Source of the DNA: Conexibacter woesei Iso977N | Lineage (GTDB): Bacteria > Actinomycetota > Thermoleophilia > Solirubrobacterales > Solirubrobacteraceae | Assembly (NCBI RefSeq): GCF_000424625.1 | Contig: NZ_AUKG01000002.1 | Location: forward strand, 930,001-994,000 | Direction: 5' to 3' | DNA length: 64,000 bases | Shown here: one piece after another, positions 41,483-48,799 of the stretch | Layout: each line of letters opens with the position of its first letter | Position numbering within the stretch: the first letter of the stretch is position 1 | Notes under the pieces: generated by a model | Told to the model about the DNA's origin: nothing | Database searches by the model: none | The model's input: only the letters and a program-made list of their open reading frames with translations | Program-made: the position numbers and the translations under genes

Positions 41483-42247
41483 CTACGCGGCGCGGCGGCG
41501 CCTCTTGGCGCCGCTGTCGCCCTTGCCGCCGACGGCGGTCGGGTGACCGGTCGTCGTCGCGAGGTCCGCCAGGACCTGGCGCAGCGCGGCGAGGTCGTAC
41601 TCGGGCTCGACGATCTCGACGATCCCGTAGACCGTGCGCGCCAGGTGGCGCCCGAGCAGCGCGGACGCCAGGTCGGCGTCGGCGGCCTTGCAGGCGTCCA
41701 GGATCTCCCGGTGGTCGGTCGTCGACTGGACGGAGAACTGGTGGCCGAAGTGCATGCGCCGGTAGCGCTCGGCGTGGTCGAAGAGCTGGAGCAGCAGCGC
41801 GTCGAAGCGCGCGCCCGCGCGCTGCGTCAGCGCGCGGTGGAAGGCCTGGTGGGGGACGTACCAGCGCGCGTAGTCCTCGTCGGCGGCGAAGTGCGCCATC
41901 GCGGCCATGTAGCCCTCGAGCTCGGCGATGTCCTCGGGCGTCATGCGCGCGATCGACAGCCGCAGCGCGGTGACCTCGAGCGGGATCCGGATCGCGTAGA
42001 GCTCCTCGACGTCGGCGAGCGACAGCGGCGCGACGCGGACGCGGCGGTTGGGCTCCGAGAGGATCAGGCCCTCGCCCTGGAGCATCCGCAGCGCCTCGCG
42101 CAGCGGGGTCCGGCTGACGCCGAGCTCGTCGGCGAGCGCCACTTGTGACATCGTCTCACCGGGCGTCAGCGATCCGTCGAGGATCGACTCGCGGATCATG
42201 CGGTGGACGTGCTCGACGCTCTGCCGCGCGGGGGCGGTGTCGCTCAT
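41483..42247 (-). CDS. GntR-family regulator (FCD domain)
   Basis: 254 aa. Winged helix: HRMIRESILDGSLTPGETMS, then DELGVSRTPLREALRMLQGE. FCD domain: VEELYAIRIPLEVTALRLSI, PHQAFHRALTQRAG and a later TTDHREILDACKAAD, with His/Asp positions for metal and acid binding. The tail is unusually basic (GAKRRRRAA). It sits in the middle of the catabolic region and is the only regulator there, so it probably controls the flanking operons through the palindromes near 40540 and the TGCAT-containing sites upstream of itself. Start ATG 42247. Confidence 0.9.
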   Translation of the reverse strand: MSDTAPARQSVEHVHRMIRESILDGSLTPGETMSQVALADELGVSRTPLREALRMLQGEGLILSEPNRRVRVAPLSLADVEELYAIRIPLEVTALRLSIARMTPEDIAELEGYMAAMAHFAADEDYARWYVPHQAFHRALTQRAGARFDALLLQLFDHAERYRRMHFGHQFSVQSTTDHREILDACKAADADLASALLGRHLARTVYGIVEIVEPEYDLAALRQVLADLATTTGHPTAVGGKGDSGAKRRRRAA

Positions 42248-42394
42248 GCGGCGCTCCGTGGGAGGTGGTGGTGGCCTGCGGCCGATGGATGCACAACGGC
42301 ATTCTACATGCACCCTCAGCGTTCGCTGTGCGCACATCCTGCCAGGTGCACCCGATGGGATGTATGAGCCATCTGCATGCACTTGTCAAACCTG

Positions 42395-42400
42395 TACGCT
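42395..42400 (+). promoter_or_regulatory. -10-like TACGCT before the carboxylesterase gene
   Basis: TACGCT ends 7 nt before ATG 42408, suggesting a leaderless message. The 160-bp divergent gap (42248-42407) also has several TGCA-core words (near 42288, 42308 and 42374), possible half-sites for the GntR protein. Confidence 0.4.
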
Positions 42401-42407
42401 CGCGCCC

Positions 42408-43790
42408 ATGAGCGTCGACGTGTTCCGTGGCCTCCCGTACGCGCGCGCAGAGCGCTTCGGGGTCCCGGAGGTCGTACCGCTGGACGCCGTCCCGGAGCCG
42501 GGCGCGCGGCCGTTCGGGCCGGTCGCGCCGCAGCCCGCGCGGCCGATCGGCGCGTTCACGCACGGCGAGCTGCCGGCGATGGACGAGGCCGCGTGCCTGA
42601 CGCTGAACGTCTGGCGGCCGCGCGGCGCGGCGGCCGGCGCCGGGTTGCCGGTGCTCGTGTGGATCCACGGCGGCGGCTTCACCATGGGGTGGGGGAGCGC
42701 GTCGCTCTACGACGGCGCGCGCCTGGCGGAGGCCGCGCAGGCGGTGGTCATCACCATCAACTACCGGCTCGGCTCGCTGGGCTGGCTGTTCCACCCCGAG
42801 CTGGGCGGCGGGAACTGGGGCCTGCGCGACCAGCAGGCGGCGCTGCGCTGGGTCCAGGGCAACGTGGAGGCCTTCGGCGGCGACCCCGCGCGCGTGACGC
42901 TCGCGGGCCAGTCGGCGGGCGCGCTCAGCGCGATCGACCATCTCCATGCCATTGGGTCGGACGGGTTGTTCCAGCGGTTGCTCCTGCTCTCCCCGCCGGT
43001 CTTCGACGCCGCCCACGCGCCGGCGATGCCGGCGCGCTGGGCCGAGGCGCTCGCCGAGCGCGCCGGGAGCTTCGCGGCGCTGCGCCACTACCCGGCCGAC
43101 CAGGTCGTCGCGCTGCACGAGGACGCGCTGGCCGACGGGCCGTTCGCCGGGACGCGCGGCTGGGCGCTGCCGACGATCGACCCCGCGACGCTGCCCGGCC
43201 CGCCGGACGCCGCCGCCCGCGCGCGGACCGACATCCCCGTGTTGCTCGGCACGACCGCCGACGAGGGCGCGTTCTTCTTCCGCGCCGCCGGGCGCCGCCC
43301 GGAGCCCGGCGAGGAGCGCCTGATCGCGATGGTCGCCCACATGCCCGGCGTGACCGACGCGCCCGCCGTGATCGCCGCCTACCGCGAGCGGCTCGGGGCG
43401 CAGACCGACACCAACACCTTGCTCGTGCGCATCGGCGGCGACCACATGGTGATCCGCCCGACCGACGCCTGGGCGCGCGAGCGCCTCGCCGCCGGGGGCA
43501 CGATCCACCGCCTCCGCATCGACCACGCGGGGGACCCGGACCTCGGCGCGCTGCACTCGATCGACGCGCCGCTGCTGTTCGGCACCTACGGCGACGGCGG
43601 CCCCGGCACGCGGATGGCCGGGAACACGCCGCGAGCCGAAGAGGTCTCGAAGTCCTTCATGAACGCCGCGGCGGCGTTCGTCGGCGGTGATGCGCCCGGC
43701 TGGGACGCGCTGCGACCCGACGGATCCGGCGCGCTCGCGGTCTTCGGCGGTCCGGAGGGAACGCCTCCGCAAACTGTGTCCGCAATCTAA
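42408..43790 (+). CDS. Type B carboxylesterase
   Basis: 460 aa from ATG 42408. Carboxylesterase/lipase features: FRGLPYARAERF at the start, ACLTLNVWRP, oxyanion loop VWIHGGGFTMGWG, nucleophile Ser169 in VTLAGQSAGALSAIDHL, acid region TTADEGAFFF and His in LGALHSIDAPLLFG. It has no signal peptide, so it works inside the cell, likely removing an ester or aryl-ester group before ring oxidation by neighbouring enzymes (inference). Its stop lies inside the inverted repeat of the next promoter. Confidence 0.92.
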   Translation: MSVDVFRGLPYARAERFGVPEVVPLDAVPEPGARPFGPVAPQPARPIGAFTHGELPAMDEAACLTLNVWRPRGAAAGAGLPVLVWIHGGGFTMGWGSASLYDGARLAEAAQAVVITINYRLGSLGWLFHPELGGGNWGLRDQQAALRWVQGNVEAFGGDPARVTLAGQSAGALSAIDHLHAIGSDGLFQRLLLLSPPVFDAAHAPAMPARWAEALAERAGSFAALRHYPADQVVALHEDALADGPFAGTRGWALPTIDPATLPGPPDAAARARTDIPVLLGTTADEGAFFFRAAGRRPEPGEERLIAMVAHMPGVTDAPAVIAAYRERLGAQTDTNTLLVRIGGDHMVIRPTDAWARERLAAGGTIHRLRIDHAGDPDLGALHSIDAPLLFGTYGDGGPGTRMAGNTPRAEEVSKSFMNAAAAFVGGDAPGWDALRPDGSGALAVFGGPEGTPPQTVSAI

Positions 43791-43822
43791 GACTGGACAC
43801 ACTTTCGCGAGTCGTGTACGTT
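43775..43822 (+). promoter_or_regulatory. Promoter of the Liv-type transporter operon with TGTGTCC inverted repeat
   Basis: TGTGTCC (43775-43781) and GGACACA (43795-43801) are perfect 7-bp arms with a 13-bp centre. TGGACA (43794-43799), a 17-bp spacer and TACGTT (43817-43822) give a promoter whose -35 box lies inside the right arm. A regulator bound to the dyad would directly control initiation. Confidence 0.6.
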
Positions 43823-43875
43823 CTGGCTCCCGCGTGCTGTGTGCCCAAGAGCACGCAGCGTCTGGAGGAGAACCC

Positions 43876-43932
43876 ATGGCACGTCGCTGTCCCGCGATCC
43901 CTGAGTACGCGCTGCCCGGAGCCGTCGCATGA
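43876..43932 (+). CDS. 18-codon ORF (uORF) coupled to the transporter ATPase gene
   Basis: ATG 43876 is preceded by GGAGGAG (43864-43870), the best ribosome site in the window, at 5 nt spacing. The peptide would be [18 protein letters not shown]. Its stop overlaps the ATG of the ATPase gene (ATGA, 43929-43932), and that gene has no ribosome site of its own. The promoter at 43794-43822 lies upstream, so the small ORF is the first translated unit. It may serve to load ribosomes or act as a regulatory leader; no family is recognised. Confidence 0.6.
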   Translation: MARRCPAIPEYALPGAVA

Positions 43933-44693
43933 CGTTGCTGCAGGTGCGCGATCTACGCGTCACCTATGGCGGTGTCGTCGCTGTCGGCGGCGTCGACCTC
44001 GACGTCCCCGAGGCGTCGGTCGTCGGCCTGATCGGCCCCAACGGTGCCGGCAAGACCTCCATGATCGACGGGCTCACCGGCTACCACCCGCCGTCCGGCG
44101 GGACCGTCACCTTCGAGGACGCCGACATCACGAGGATGCGCCCGCACCTGCGTGCGCGCCGCGGGATGGTCCGGACCTTCCAGTCCGTCGAGCTGTTCGA
44201 CGACCTGACGGTGGAGGAGAACCTCCAGGTCGCCGCCGACGGCCTCGGCGTCGCCCGGGCGCTGCGCGACGTGTTCCTGCCGGCCGCCCGCGCCCGCGCG
44301 CGCCGCGACGACGTCGCCTGGGCGCTGGACGTCTGCGGCCTCGCCGACGTCGCCGACGCGCGCCCCACCGAGATCTCCCACGGCCGCCGCAAGCTCGTCG
44401 GCGTGGCCCGCGCGCTCGCGCGCCGGCCGCGCCTCGTGCTGCTCGACGAGCCCGCCGCCGGCCTCGACACCGACGAGTCGCTGGAGCTGGGCCGTCGCCT
44501 GGCGGCGATGCCCGAGCAGGGCGTCAGCGTGTTGCTGGTCGACCACGACATGGGGTTGGTGCTCGGCGTCTGCACCGACATCTACGTGTTGGACTTCGGG
44601 AGGCTGATCGCGCACGGCACGCCCGCGCAGATCCGCGAGGACCCCGCGGTCCTCGGCGCCTACCTCGGGACCGAGGAGATCGCGCATGCCTGA
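43929..44693 (+). CDS. livG: Branched-chain amino-acid-type ABC transporter ATP-binding protein (LivG-like)
   Basis: 254 aa. Walker [11 protein letters not shown] (about residues 35-44), Q-loop [20 protein letters not shown] typical of LivG, Walker [14 protein letters not shown]-loop [10 protein letters not shown]. The signature is degenerate: [14 protein letters not shown] instead of LSGGQ. HAAT-family systems import branched-chain amino acids but also aromatics, amides and urea; the surrounding enzymes argue for an aromatic or cyclic substrate. Start ATG overlaps the small upstream ORF. Confidence 0.92.
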
Positions 44694-45402
44694 GCAGCGC
44701 CTGCATCTCGACGCGCTCGCCGCGGGCTACGACGGCAACGCGGTCGTCCGCGACCTCACGCTGAGCGTCGCGCCCGGCGAGGTCGTCGCGCTGCTCGGCC
44801 CCAACGGCGCGGGCAAGACCACCACCTTGATGACGATCGCCGGCCTGCTGCCGCCGGTCGGCGGCGCGATCCACGTGGACGGCGCGCCGATCGCCGGGCA
44901 GGCCGCGCACAAGCTCGCGAAGGCCGGCGTCTCGCTCGTCCCCGAGGGCCGCTCGCTGTTCTTCAGCCTCACGGTCGCCGAGCACCTCAAGCTCGCCGAG
45001 GGCCGCGAGCCGCTCGCCAAGGGCGAGTTGATGGCCTTGCTTCCGGAGCTGGAGAAGTGCCTGGATCGCAAGGCCGGCGTCCTGTCGGGCGGCGAGCAGC
45101 AGATGCTCGCGGTCGGGCGCGCGCTGGTCTCGCGGCCCAAGCTGCTGCTGGTGGACGAGATGTCCCTCGGCCTCGCGCCCGTGATCGTGGAGCGCCTGCT
45201 CCCGATCCTGCGGCGCGTCGCGGCCGACCTCGGCGCCGGCGTGCTGTTCGTCGAGCAGCACGTCGCCCTGGCGCTCAAGGTCGCTGATCGCGCCTATGTC
45301 TTGAACCATGGTCGGCTGGTCCTGGAGGGCGCGGCGTCCGAGCTGCGCGACCAGCCCGACCTCCTGAAGTCCAGCTACCTCGGTGAGGTGGCTGTTGCCT
45401 AA
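44686..45402 (+). CDS. livF: Branched-chain amino-acid-type ABC transporter ATP-binding protein (LivF-like)
   Basis: 238 aa, overlapping LivG by 8 bp. Walker [14 protein letters not shown]-loop [17 protein letters not shown] (the family has a PEGR motif), signature [15 protein letters not shown], Walker [15 protein letters not shown]-loop [18 protein letters not shown]. It forms the ATPase pair with LivG on the cytoplasmic face. Confidence 0.94.
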
Positions 45403-45436
45403 GCACGCACGCACTATGAGGAGAGGTGCTCACAAC

Positions 45437-46723
45437 ATGAGCGTTCGGTTGAAGGTCCCGGGAGCGCTCGTCGCGCTCTCGCTCGCGGCGGTGGCCGCGG
45501 CGGGTTGCGGTTCCAGCAGCGACAACAGCTCGACGTCGTCCAACAGCAGCGCCAGCACCGGCGCCTCGACGCCGGCCGCCGCGCCGGCGGCCGACGCGCT
45601 CGGCACGGCCAAGAAGGCGAGCGGCAAGCCGATCGTCCTCGGCCTGCTCAACCTGGAGTCGGGACCGGTCACGTTCCCCGAGTACCGCCAGGCCGCTGAG
45701 CTGGCGGTCAAGTACATCAACGACTACAAGGGCGGCATCGGCGGCCGGCCTGTGCAGCTCGCGAGCTGCGCGACCGACGGCCAGCCGGCGACGTCCGGCC
45801 GCTGCGCCAACCAGATCGCCGACAAGAACCCGACGGCGATCCTCGGCGGCGCGGACACCGGCGCGCCGGGTGCGTTCCCGGTCTGGGAGCGCAAGAGGCT
45901 CGCCTACATGGGCGGCATCCCGTTCACGCCCGTCGAGTCCAACGCCCCCAACGCGGTGCAGTTCTACTCCGTGTCGGTCGGCGACAACTTGGCCACCGTG
46001 CAGTACGCGGTCAAGGAGCTCGGCGTCAAGAAGGCGTCGGTCATCTACACCGACGACTCGCAGGGCAAGGCCACCGGCCTCGGCGTGATCGTCCCGGCCT
46101 TCAAGGCCGCGGGCGCCGAAGCCAAGGCGATCCCGGTCTCGCCGTCCGCGGCGGACCTGTCGTCGGCGGCGGCCGCCGCGATCGGCAGCTCGCCCGACGC
46201 GGTCTACGTCAACACGCCGAACGCGTGCCCGGCCGTGCTGAAGGCCCTGAAGGCCGTCGGCTACACCGGCAAGATCATGGGCATCGACCCGTGCACCTCG
46301 CCGCCGGCGCTGAAGGCGGCGGGCGACTCGGCCGAGGGCCTGTACTTCGCGCAGCCGTTCGTCTCGCTGGACTCCGGTGACAAGGACGCCAACCTGATGG
46401 GCGCCGCGATCAAGAAGTACGGCGGGTCGGACATCGCGCTCGACTCGATCGCGCAGGCCGGCTTCTCGTCGGTCATGAACGTCCAGGCCGCGCTCGACGG
46501 CGTGAGCGACCTGACCGAGAAGAACATCCTCGCGGCGTTCAAGGACGGCAGGGCCCACGACAACTTCATGGCCCACCCGTACACCTGTGACGGCAAGCAG
46601 CTCGCGGGCAACACCGCGGTCTGCAACACGTTCCAGAAGATCAAGCAGATCAAGAGCGGCAAGGTCACCACGGTCACCGATGACTGGGTGAACGGCGCCT
46701 CGCTGTACAAGCCGCAGTCGTAG
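45437..46723 (+). CDS. livK: Liv-type ABC transporter substrate-binding lipoprotein
   Basis: 428 aa from ATG 45437; GGAGAGGTG lies upstream, and ATG 45416 is a weaker alternative. The lipoprotein signal ends AAVAAAGC (Cys24), followed by a Ser/Asn-rich linker. The mature part is a type I periplasmic-binding fold: KPIVLGLLNLESGPVTFPEY, LAVKYINDYKGGIGGRPVQL and VKELGVKKASVIYTDDSQG. An EYRQA-containing start and many small residues resemble aromatic- or amide-binding relatives as much as true branched-chain amino-acid receptors. It confers specificity on the LivGF/LivHM system. Confidence 0.92.
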   Translation: MSVRLKVPGALVALSLAAVAAAGCGSSSDNSSTSSNSSASTGASTPAAAPAADALGTAKKASGKPIVLGLLNLESGPVTFPEYRQAAELAVKYINDYKGGIGGRPVQLASCATDGQPATSGRCANQIADKNPTAILGGADTGAPGAFPVWERKRLAYMGGIPFTPVESNAPNAVQFYSVSVGDNLATVQYAVKELGVKKASVIYTDDSQGKATGLGVIVPAFKAAGAEAKAIPVSPSAADLSSAAAAAIGSSPDAVYVNTPNACPAVLKALKAVGYTGKIMGIDPCTSPPALKAAGDSAEGLYFAQPFVSLDSGDKDANLMGAAIKKYGGSDIALDSIAQAGFSSVMNVQAALDGVSDLTEKNILAAFKDGRAHDNFMAHPYTCDGKQLAGNTAVCNTFQKIKQIKSGKVTTVTDDWVNGASLYKPQS

Positions 46724-46744: not shown

Positions 46745-48799
46745 ATGTCCTCCTACATCCTGTTCCTGCTGCTGGGCCTGGGGTCGGGTGCCGTCTACGG
46801 CATGCTGGCCCTGGGCCTGGTGCTCAAGCACCGCAGCGGCGGCGTCGTGGACTTCGGCCACGGCGCGGTCGCGATGTTCATCGCCTACGTGTACCTGGGG
46901 CTGCGCCAGGACGGGACGCTCGAGCTGCCGTGGCTGTGGCTGCCGCACTCGATCGACCTCGGCGGCGCGTTCGGCACGTGGCCGGCGATCTTGGTGTCCT
47001 TGGTCTACGCAGCGGTCTTCGGCGCCATCCTGTACGTCTTGATCTACCGCCCGCTGCGCGGCGCGACGGCCCTGACGCGCGTGTGCGCGTCGGTCGGCAC
47101 GATGCTCGCGCTGCAGGCGATCGCCGTGCTGAACTTCGGGACCACGGCGAAGTCGACGCCGGCGATCCTGCCCAACAAGCCGTTCAGGATCGGGGACATC
47201 ACGGTCCCGGTCGACCGGCTGTGGTTCGCGGGCATCGTGGTCGTCCTGGCGATCCTGCTCGGCGCGGTCTACCGCTTCACGCGCTTCGGCCTCGCCACGC
47301 GCGCGTCGGCCGAGAACGAGCAGGGCGCGGCGCTGGTCGGGCTCAACGCCGACCGGATCGCGCTCTGGAACTGGGTCCTGGCGACGATCCTCGCGGGTGT
47401 CGCGGGGATCCTGATCGCGCCGGTCTCGACCGTCGACCCGACGTCCTACACCTTGTTCATCGTCCCGGCGCTGGGCTGCGCGCTGCTCGCGCGGTTCACC
47501 TCGTTCGGGATCGCCGCCGGCGCGGGCCTCGTGCTCGGCATGCTGCAGAGCGAGATCACCAAGTTGATCTCGGTCGCCTCGTGGCTGCCGCAGGAGGGCC
47601 TGCCGCAGGCGCTGCCGTTCGTCCTGATCGTGCTGGCGATGACGCTGATGTCGCGCGGCGTCGGTGCGCGCGGCGTCGTCGGCGAGCTGAAGAACCCGTC
47701 GCTCGGGCGCCCGACGCGGCCGTGGTCGACGGCGCTGATGTGCTTCGTCCTCGGGACGATCGCGCTGATCGTGCTCAGCGGCTCGCTGCGCGTCGCGATG
47801 ACCGCGTCGATCTGCACGGTGTGCATGGCCATGTCCTTGGTCGTGCTGACCGGCTACGTCGGCCAGGTGTCGCTGGCGCAGATGTCGTTCGCGGGCATCG
47901 GCGCGTTCGAGGTCACGCACCTCTTCGGGCCGGGCACGCCGTTCATCATCACCCTGTTCTGCTCCGCGCTGGTCGCGGTGCCGCTGGGGCTGTTGATCGG
48001 GCTGCCGGCGCTGCGGGTGCGCGGGGTCAACCTCGCGGTGGTGACGCTGGCCGCGGCGTTCGCTTTGGACGCGCTGGTCTTCAACAACGACAAGTTCTCC
48101 GGCGGTCTGGCGGGGCGCGACGTCGCGTCGCCGAAGTTCCTCGGCGTCGACGTCGGGATCGCCCATGGCGATGCCTACCCGCGCGTGATCTTCGGGGTGG
48201 TCGCGCTGGCGATCGTCTGCCTCGTGGGTGTCTTCGTCGCGCGGCTGCGCAACGGCGCCGCGGGCCGGATGTTCATCGCGGTGCGCTCCAACGAGCGCGC
48301 GGCCTCGGCGATCGGGATCGACGTGGCCCGGACCAAGTTGATGGCCTTCGGGCTGTCGGCGTTCATCGCCGGCCTGGGCGGCGGGCTGCTGGCCTACCAG
48401 CAGCAGACGGTGTCCTCACCGTCGTTCGCGACGTTCGCGTCGCTGTCGCTGCTGGCCGTCACCTACGTGGCGGGCGTGGGGCGGATCGCGGGCGCGGTCG
48501 TCGCGGGCGTGATGCTGTCGTCCACGGGCCTGTTCGTCACCGCGCTGGACAAGGCGTTCGGCGTCGGCAAGTACCAGCTGTTGGTCGCGGGCGTCGCGCT
48601 GACGCTGACGGCGATCAAGCAGCCGGACGGCATCGCCGCGACGCCTCCGCCGCCGCTGGTCAAGTTGTGGCACATGATCATGTCGAGGTGGGAGGGACGG
48701 TCGAAGGGGAACAACGGCAACGGCGCCCCGTCGGCTCCGTCCGCGCCGTCGGCTCCGTCGGCGCAGCCGCGCGTCGGCTCCGCGCCGGTGAAGTCGTGA
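46745..48799 (+). CDS. Fused LivH-LivM ABC transporter permease
   Basis: 684 aa, both permease subunits in one chain. The N-terminal half (about residues 1-300) is LivH-like: GLGSGAVYGMLALGLVLKHR, DFGHGAVAMF and a loop with GLATRASAENEQGAALVGLN. The C-terminal half (about 325-640) is LivM-like: VVLTGYVGQVSLAQMSFAGI, MFIAVRSNERAASAIGIDVA and FIAGLGGGLLAYQQ. The tail has an APSAPSAPSAPSAQP repeat. In most organisms these are two genes; fusion fixes a 1:1 ratio. It completes the importer operon. Confidence 0.92.
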   Translation: MSSYILFLLLGLGSGAVYGMLALGLVLKHRSGGVVDFGHGAVAMFIAYVYLGLRQDGTLELPWLWLPHSIDLGGAFGTWPAILVSLVYAAVFGAILYVLIYRPLRGATALTRVCASVGTMLALQAIAVLNFGTTAKSTPAILPNKPFRIGDITVPVDRLWFAGIVVVLAILLGAVYRFTRFGLATRASAENEQGAALVGLNADRIALWNWVLATILAGVAGILIAPVSTVDPTSYTLFIVPALGCALLARFTSFGIAAGAGLVLGMLQSEITKLISVASWLPQEGLPQALPFVLIVLAMTLMSRGVGARGVVGELKNPSLGRPTRPWSTALMCFVLGTIALIVLSGSLRVAMTASICTVCMAMSLVVLTGYVGQVSLAQMSFAGIGAFEVTHLFGPGTPFIITLFCSALVAVPLGLLIGLPALRVRGVNLAVVTLAAAFALDALVFNNDKFSGGLAGRDVASPKFLGVDVGIAHGDAYPRVIFGVVALAIVCLVGVFVARLRNGAAGRMFIAVRSNERAASAIGIDVARTKLMAFGLSAFIAGLGGGLLAYQQQTVSSPSFATFASLSLLAVTYVAGVGRIAGAVVAGVMLSSTGLFVTALDKAFGVGKYQLLVAGVALTLTAIKQPDGIAATPPPPLVKLWHMIMSRWEGRSKGNNGNGAPSAPSAPSAPSAQPRVGSAPVKS

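Follow-up and report, generated by a model that had tools for sequence, protein, structure and literature searches.

An 18-codon reading frame overlapping the start of a livG-type gene in Conexibacter woesei: most likely a leader that loads ribosomes in this lineage, or a relic, rather than a peptide gene

In Conexibacter woesei Iso977N a very short open reading frame, preceded by a strong ribosome site, stops at the point where a livG-type transporter gene begins, which raises the question of whether this short ORF encodes a peptide, senses a signal or brings ribosomes to the gene downstream. All of these roles had been offered in a preliminary description of the window, that is, the whole stretch of 64,000 nucleotides that was analysed (contig NZ_AUKG01000002.1, positions 930,001 to 994,000). 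The features of the locus, numbered within the window, are the following:

43794..43822, + strand: candidate promoter upstream of the liv-type operon (-35 TGGACA, N17, -10 TACGTT), a block conserved in the related locus L153
43832..43856, + strand: 7-bp inverted repeat from a repeat search, a possible hairpin just 5' of the Shine-Dalgarno (SD) site of the short ORF
43864..43870, + strand: SD site GGAGGAG of the short ORF, with a 5-nt spacer to the ATG at 43876
43876-43932, + strand: short ORF of 18 codons, ATG at 43876 and TGA at 43930-43932
43918..43921, + strand: GGAG, the ribosome site of livG itself, within the short ORF and with a 7-nt spacer
43929..44693, + strand: livG-type ABC transporter ATPase, 254 aa (PF00005, ABC_tran, and PF12399; match to the LivG model PRK11300 below its cut-off)
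44686..45402, + strand: livF-type ABC transporter ATPase (PF00005, ABC_tran; match to the LivF model PRK11614 below its cut-off)
45437..46723, + strand: substrate-binding protein (PF13458, Peripla_BP_6), with the start given by the gene caller of this analysis
46745..48799, + strand: fused LivH-LivM-type permease (PF02653, BPD_transp_2, in two stretches)

The layout that had been described is present in full: GGAGGAG, 5 nt, ATG, 18 codons and a stop that overlaps the livG start, the TGA of the short ORF and the ATG of livG (43929) sharing the ATGA of 43929-43932 in a 4-nt overlap. Its 18 codons translate to [18 protein letters not shown]. Upstream lies an esterase gene whose TAA stop, at 43790, is 85 nt away from the ATG of the short ORF. 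The starts of the short ORF and livG are separated by 53 nt, which places the former one base off the livG frame, and no more than 24 nt of this frame are open ahead of the livG start.

According to Pfam, the neighbourhood contains a COesterase gene upstream, a GntR/FCD regulator on the opposite strand and genes for a FAA hydrolase, a cupin protein, a short-chain dehydrogenase, a glyoxalase-fold protein and a FAD-binding protein, from which the operon would seem to serve a catabolic pathway. The LivG and LivF equivalog matches, being below their cut-offs, do not fix the substrate of the transporter. The LivH- and LivM-like halves of the permease are joined in one protein of 684 aa, and one continuous match over at least 655 of these 684 residues was found in seven of eight related loci; in the eighth (L018) the sequence ends short of the expected place of the gene.

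The strength of the ribosome sites was computed as duplex energy with what we take to be the anti-SD sequence, and compared with 743 gene starts called by a simple, uncurated caller in 864 kb of the same genome (an 800 kb sample plus the window). The site of the short ORF reaches -9.3 kcal/mol, a value equalled or surpassed by 72 of the 743 genes. It is strong; nevertheless, the earlier claim that it is the strongest has to be withdrawn, given that the gene of the substrate-binding protein, in the same operon, has a site of -10.2 kcal/mol. It had also been stated that livG is devoid of a ribosome site, which is not the case: the GGAG of 43918-43921, 7 nt from the start, gives -5.8 kcal/mol, better than the median of the called genes (-4.2 kcal/mol), and 283/743 genes have an equal or stronger one.

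The codon use of the short ORF is unlike that of genes, although 17 codons make a weak test. Its codon log-odds (codons 2-18) amount to -8.4, whereas the 743 called genes average +7.8 over their first 18 codons and only 10 of them score as low or lower. Out-of-frame stretches average -15.1, with 1194 of 1486 at or below the value of the short ORF, which, low as it is for a gene, thus exceeds most of them, and GC3 is 0.65 against a gene mean of 0.91. When frames were compared over 17 codons none of them stood out (-5.0 for the frame of the short ORF, -4.3 for the next one and -6.3 to -13.9 for the others). Nothing here suggests selection on the peptide, but regulatory ORFs need not carry codon bias.

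Concerning the frequency of this arrangement, NTGA is found at 265 of the 742 background gene starts. An ATG ORF of 5-50 codons, with a SD match of at least 5 bases and ending in a 4-nt overlap, precedes 6/742 gene starts, compared with 1.9 (sd 1.3) when the 200 nt upstream were dinucleotide-shuffled 40 times; if any SD-led short ORF reaching a gene start is counted, there are 26 cases against 14.2 (sd 3.1). The layout is thus uncommon and at most mildly above chance, and the excess over shuffles is only suggestive because the DNA before a genuine gene start frequently codes for the end of a neighbouring gene. Two of the six cases, livG and the esterase gene, lie in the window, and the four remaining ORFs span 8 to 23 codons. 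The ORF before the esterase gene (42355-42411, + strand) is also an 18-codon ATG ORF, led by AGGTG and ending in ATGA at the called start. This start is preceded by hardly any ribosome site, and its call is doubtful because the frame is open upstream and contains an in-frame ATG.

The preliminary description placed a promoter upstream of the short ORF. The block TGGACA-N17-TACGTT begins 3 bases past the esterase stop and ends 53 nt before the ATG of the short ORF, which would therefore be the first ORF behind it; a consensus promoter scan of 42500-45500 called no promoter at all, this one included. What sustains the proposal is conservation: the block is probably a true promoter, because 27 of its 29 bases are kept before livG in a species of the same genus (locus L153, genome G005). 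In L098, from the same family, 15/29 bases are identical with the same hexamer spacing (both blocks were chosen by eye and then located by script). In a pairwise alignment with L010, which belongs to the operon of L153, 29 of 32 bases are identical in 43791-43822 versus 130 of the 188 aligned at the end of the esterase gene. The block has a single match in its own genome at up to 3 mismatches, and its core has two matches in 146 family genomes, one in its own genome and one in G005, each without mismatch, whereas the reversed pattern used as control gave single matches in G025 and G397 at up to 3 mismatches. A DNA search of the 146 family genomes with 43780-43935 returned matches at E <= 0.1 in 64 genomes; outside the own genome the best E value, 2.5e-7 (query 10-44), belongs to the G005 promoter, followed by one at E 6.2e-4 and the remainder above 0.003. 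Except for those to the own genome and to the G005 promoter, these matches are taken as chance similarity.

Related to this promoter, its spacer is nearly unchanged between the two species (43794-43822 and L153:268-296) though their transporter proteins differ by about 25%, and this constancy hints at the operator of some regulator, a possible one being the GntR/FCD protein of 41483-42247, of which relatives were found in G005 and G272. Another operator candidate, the palindrome TGTGTCC-N13-GGACACA (within arms 43761-43781 and 43795-43815), was discarded because the left arm is not conserved in L010. The inverted repeat of 43832..43856 sits in a gap of the L010 alignment and its fold is not significant (z -1.45); the other folds of the leader and livG region gave z -1.55 and 0.03, also without significance, the last one corresponding to the livG start, where the predicted structure is no stronger than that of shuffles.

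Relatives of livG were sought in 61 relatives at E <= 1e-60 and, at E <= 1e-85, in overlapping sets of genomes from the class (399), the family (146) and the phylum (396), and a contig search contributed 80 of 501 candidate loci, among the matches listed. The upstream regions of L010-L023, L057, L096-L098 and L100 were viewed, and nine relatives, with start codons of the analysts' choice, were scanned for a short ORF with the rule used for the window: L153 (the L010 operon), L016, L017, L098, L018, L019, L020, L100 and L021. The count omits L097, whose upstream DNA is that of L017, L096, which by its contig coordinates is the same match as L016, and L011-L015, L022, L023 and L057 (farther removed, at 41-56% identity; by eye, several seem to lie behind a permease gene). 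L024-L095 were likewise outside the count.

In none of the nine does a SD-led short ORF share 4 nt with livG. An esterase gene upstream (looked for in L153, in L154, which is the region of L098, and in L016-L021) is known in two of the nine, L153 and L098; since only these two are known to share it, the other loci are a test of a livG leader in general more than of this junction. The relatives other than L153 and L098 have different DNA upstream of livG, which in L021 is preceded by a permease gene. The absence is not entirely clean, as some short ORFs do occur in the relatives: one of 6 codons in L018, with ATG, ending in ATGA without SD and inside a palindrome; one of 37 codons in L019, with GTG and a weak GGAG, ending 14 nt before the livG start; and one of 8 codons in L021, with GTG and no SD, ending at the livG start. 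Others without SD lie near the livG start in L016, L017, L098 and L100. Palindromes just before livG (CTTTCAT-TAG-ATGAAAG and similar ones) were seen at L018:5947-5963, L019:5928-5944 and L020:5956-5970, so livG control may differ among lineages.

The same-genus locus L153, on a contig of 11,175 bases, has an identical operon order (the end of the esterase gene, livG, livF, binding protein, fused permease, glyoxalase-fold protein, short-chain dehydrogenase and FAD oxidase) with 49-77% protein identity. There, the ATG directly behind the SD is that of livG, 49 nt past the -10 box, a distance similar to that of the short-ORF ATG in the window (53 nt), and its SD is of similar strength (-8.7 versus -9.3 kcal/mol). 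In G272, from the same family (L098/L154), an esterase gene is likewise found upstream, and the SD-led ATG of L098 (-5.8 kcal/mol), 38 nt past the -10 box, is in frame with livG and sits seven codons before the ATG that aligns with the livG ATG of the window. Judging from these loci, the SD-led ATG stays at a roughly similar distance from the promoter, and with the starts chosen for L153 and L098 it is the start of livG itself. That position is all that is kept across the compared loci: start, length and residues of the short ORF are not, which runs against the conservation that a functional peptide had led one to look for.

The GGAGGAG of 43864-43870 is thus probably the ancestral ribosome site of livG, and the reading considered moderately probable is that livG became separated from this site and now receives ribosomes from the short ORF by termination-reinitiation. 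The SD and ATG of 43864-43878 would have been the original initiation site of livG in the operon, and a length change between this ATG and the livG core, in the present lineage, would have moved the ATG out of the livG frame; for this it would be enough that the stretch departs by 1 nt from an in-frame N-terminal extension, or that it contains a longer insertion. The displaced ATG would now open the 18-codon ORF that closes at the ATGA where livG begins, so that ribosomes from the strong site would read the 18 codons, terminate at TGA and initiate again on livG, with the assistance of the GGAG 7 nt upstream, and the peptide itself would not be under selection. We infer the evolutionary step, the translation of the short ORF and the reinitiation; the length change in particular is deduced from position rather than seen, because the bases between SD and livG are not reliably alignable with those of the relatives.

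Against this reading, nothing indicates that the livG start has to be opened by coupling, because the structure predicted around it is no stronger than in shuffles (z 0.03), and the GGAG of livG may be sufficient alone for independent initiation. From this follows the first of the two main competing explanations, judged rather unlikely: that livG initiates from its own GGAG and the upstream ATG is noise or little used. The above-median strength of this GGAG is in agreement with it, as is the abundance of NTGA starts (265/742), at which any open upstream ATG in frame would end; besides, ribosome profiling in M. tuberculosis found many translated short ORFs, mostly apparently unselected (PMC9094748). 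However, the SD of the short ORF surpasses that of livG (-9.3 against -5.8 kcal/mol), so that initiation there is expected, and its stop is positioned exactly for reinitiation. The second, which is improbable, is a single-base assembly error splitting one livG with a N-terminal extension of about 18 residues from 43876. The one-base offset of the short ORF would fit, with the livG frame open only 24 nt upstream, and in-frame N-terminal extensions exist in relatives, with the starts chosen (7 residues in L098, 9 in L018, 15 in L019 and 20 in L017); on the other hand, the stretch has no long homopolymer by eye, the codon use of the short ORF is not gene-like, and the livG ATG aligns with an ATG of L098 and has a GGAG of its own. 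A programmed frameshift fusing the short ORF to livG (-1 frame) was also considered and discarded, no slippery heptamer being found by eye before the stop.

A functional leader appears very improbable, whether as a peptide for attenuation or sensing or as a small protein that assists the transporter. The short ORF is the first one past the conserved promoter block, coupled ORFs and conserved cysteine-rich leader ORFs have been reported in mycobacteria (PMC4633059), and gene-like codon bias is not required of a regulatory ORF (PMC9094748). Nevertheless, the short ORF is absent from the nine relatives scanned, its codon use is unlike that of genes, and [18 protein letters not shown] has no regulatory codon run, containing one I, one V, one L and a single C. 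No terminator-like site occurs in 42500-45500, where the short ORF runs straight into livG, and nothing in 43700-44100 reaches a Rfam gathering score, the sole match having 20.1 bits for a gathering score of 69; on these two grounds attenuator and riboswitch were ruled out, and the sensing leader once proposed finds no backing in any of these searches. Neither does the membrane or accessory peptide, in which, apart from the lack of relatives and of gene-like codon use, no membrane-type hydrophobic stretch is seen by eye.

Most likely, then, the short ORF is not a peptide gene but either a leader, specific to this lineage, that loads ribosomes or a relic. The ribosome-loading role that had been suggested is plausible from the anatomy (SD-led ORF, ATGA overlap and GGAG inside) and is the leading reading, the dependence of livG on it being a prediction. 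The fuller proposal, put forward tentatively, is that livG parted recently from a strong initiation site, that a newly formed coupled leader ORF keeps this site in use, and that livG depends on reinitiation. If true, it would be a snapshot of ribosome-delivery uORFs arising from a former gene start, and one example, with a clear same-genus comparison, of a coupled leader ORF born from start displacement. Beyond annotation its relevance is small, and in annotation an ATGA overlap with a strong SD is not to be read as evidence for a peptide gene.

Several known systems resemble this arrangement in part. livG was not named among the literature matches listed on leader peptides, small ORFs and uORFs, which does not amount to saying that this junction is unpublished. 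As in the uORF attenuators, such as that of Corynebacterium ilvB-II, a short ORF stands before an actinobacterial operon, but the window has no terminator-like site, significant fold, branched-chain codon enrichment or conservation, unlike attenuators of that type (PMC10272879). In mycobacteria, RTGA-coupled short ORFs have been reported as over-represented and ribosome delivery has been proposed for them (PMC4633059); the likeness lies in an unannotated short ORF, in the window only putatively the first of its transcript, with a TGA stop that overlaps the RTG of the next start, here in the ATGA of 43929-43932. The mycobacterial ones are described, in a supporting-figure legend of that paper, as the first gene of leaderless transcripts, whereas the short ORF of the window presumably carries a 5' leader because of its strong SD, the transcript start being predicted. 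That a short uORF 'delivers' the ribosome is also a possibility discussed in a 2025 review (PMC12548453). Finally, termination-reinitiation at ATGA overlaps is established, typically with a SD inside the upstream gene, and 14 pairs with ATGA and other overlaps from H. volcanii and E. coli are translationally coupled (PMC6728339). Those pairs consist of two annotated genes, whereas the upstream ORF of the window is not gene-like; with them it shares the 4-nt overlap and the SD of the downstream gene, the GGAG of 43918-43921, inside the upstream ORF.
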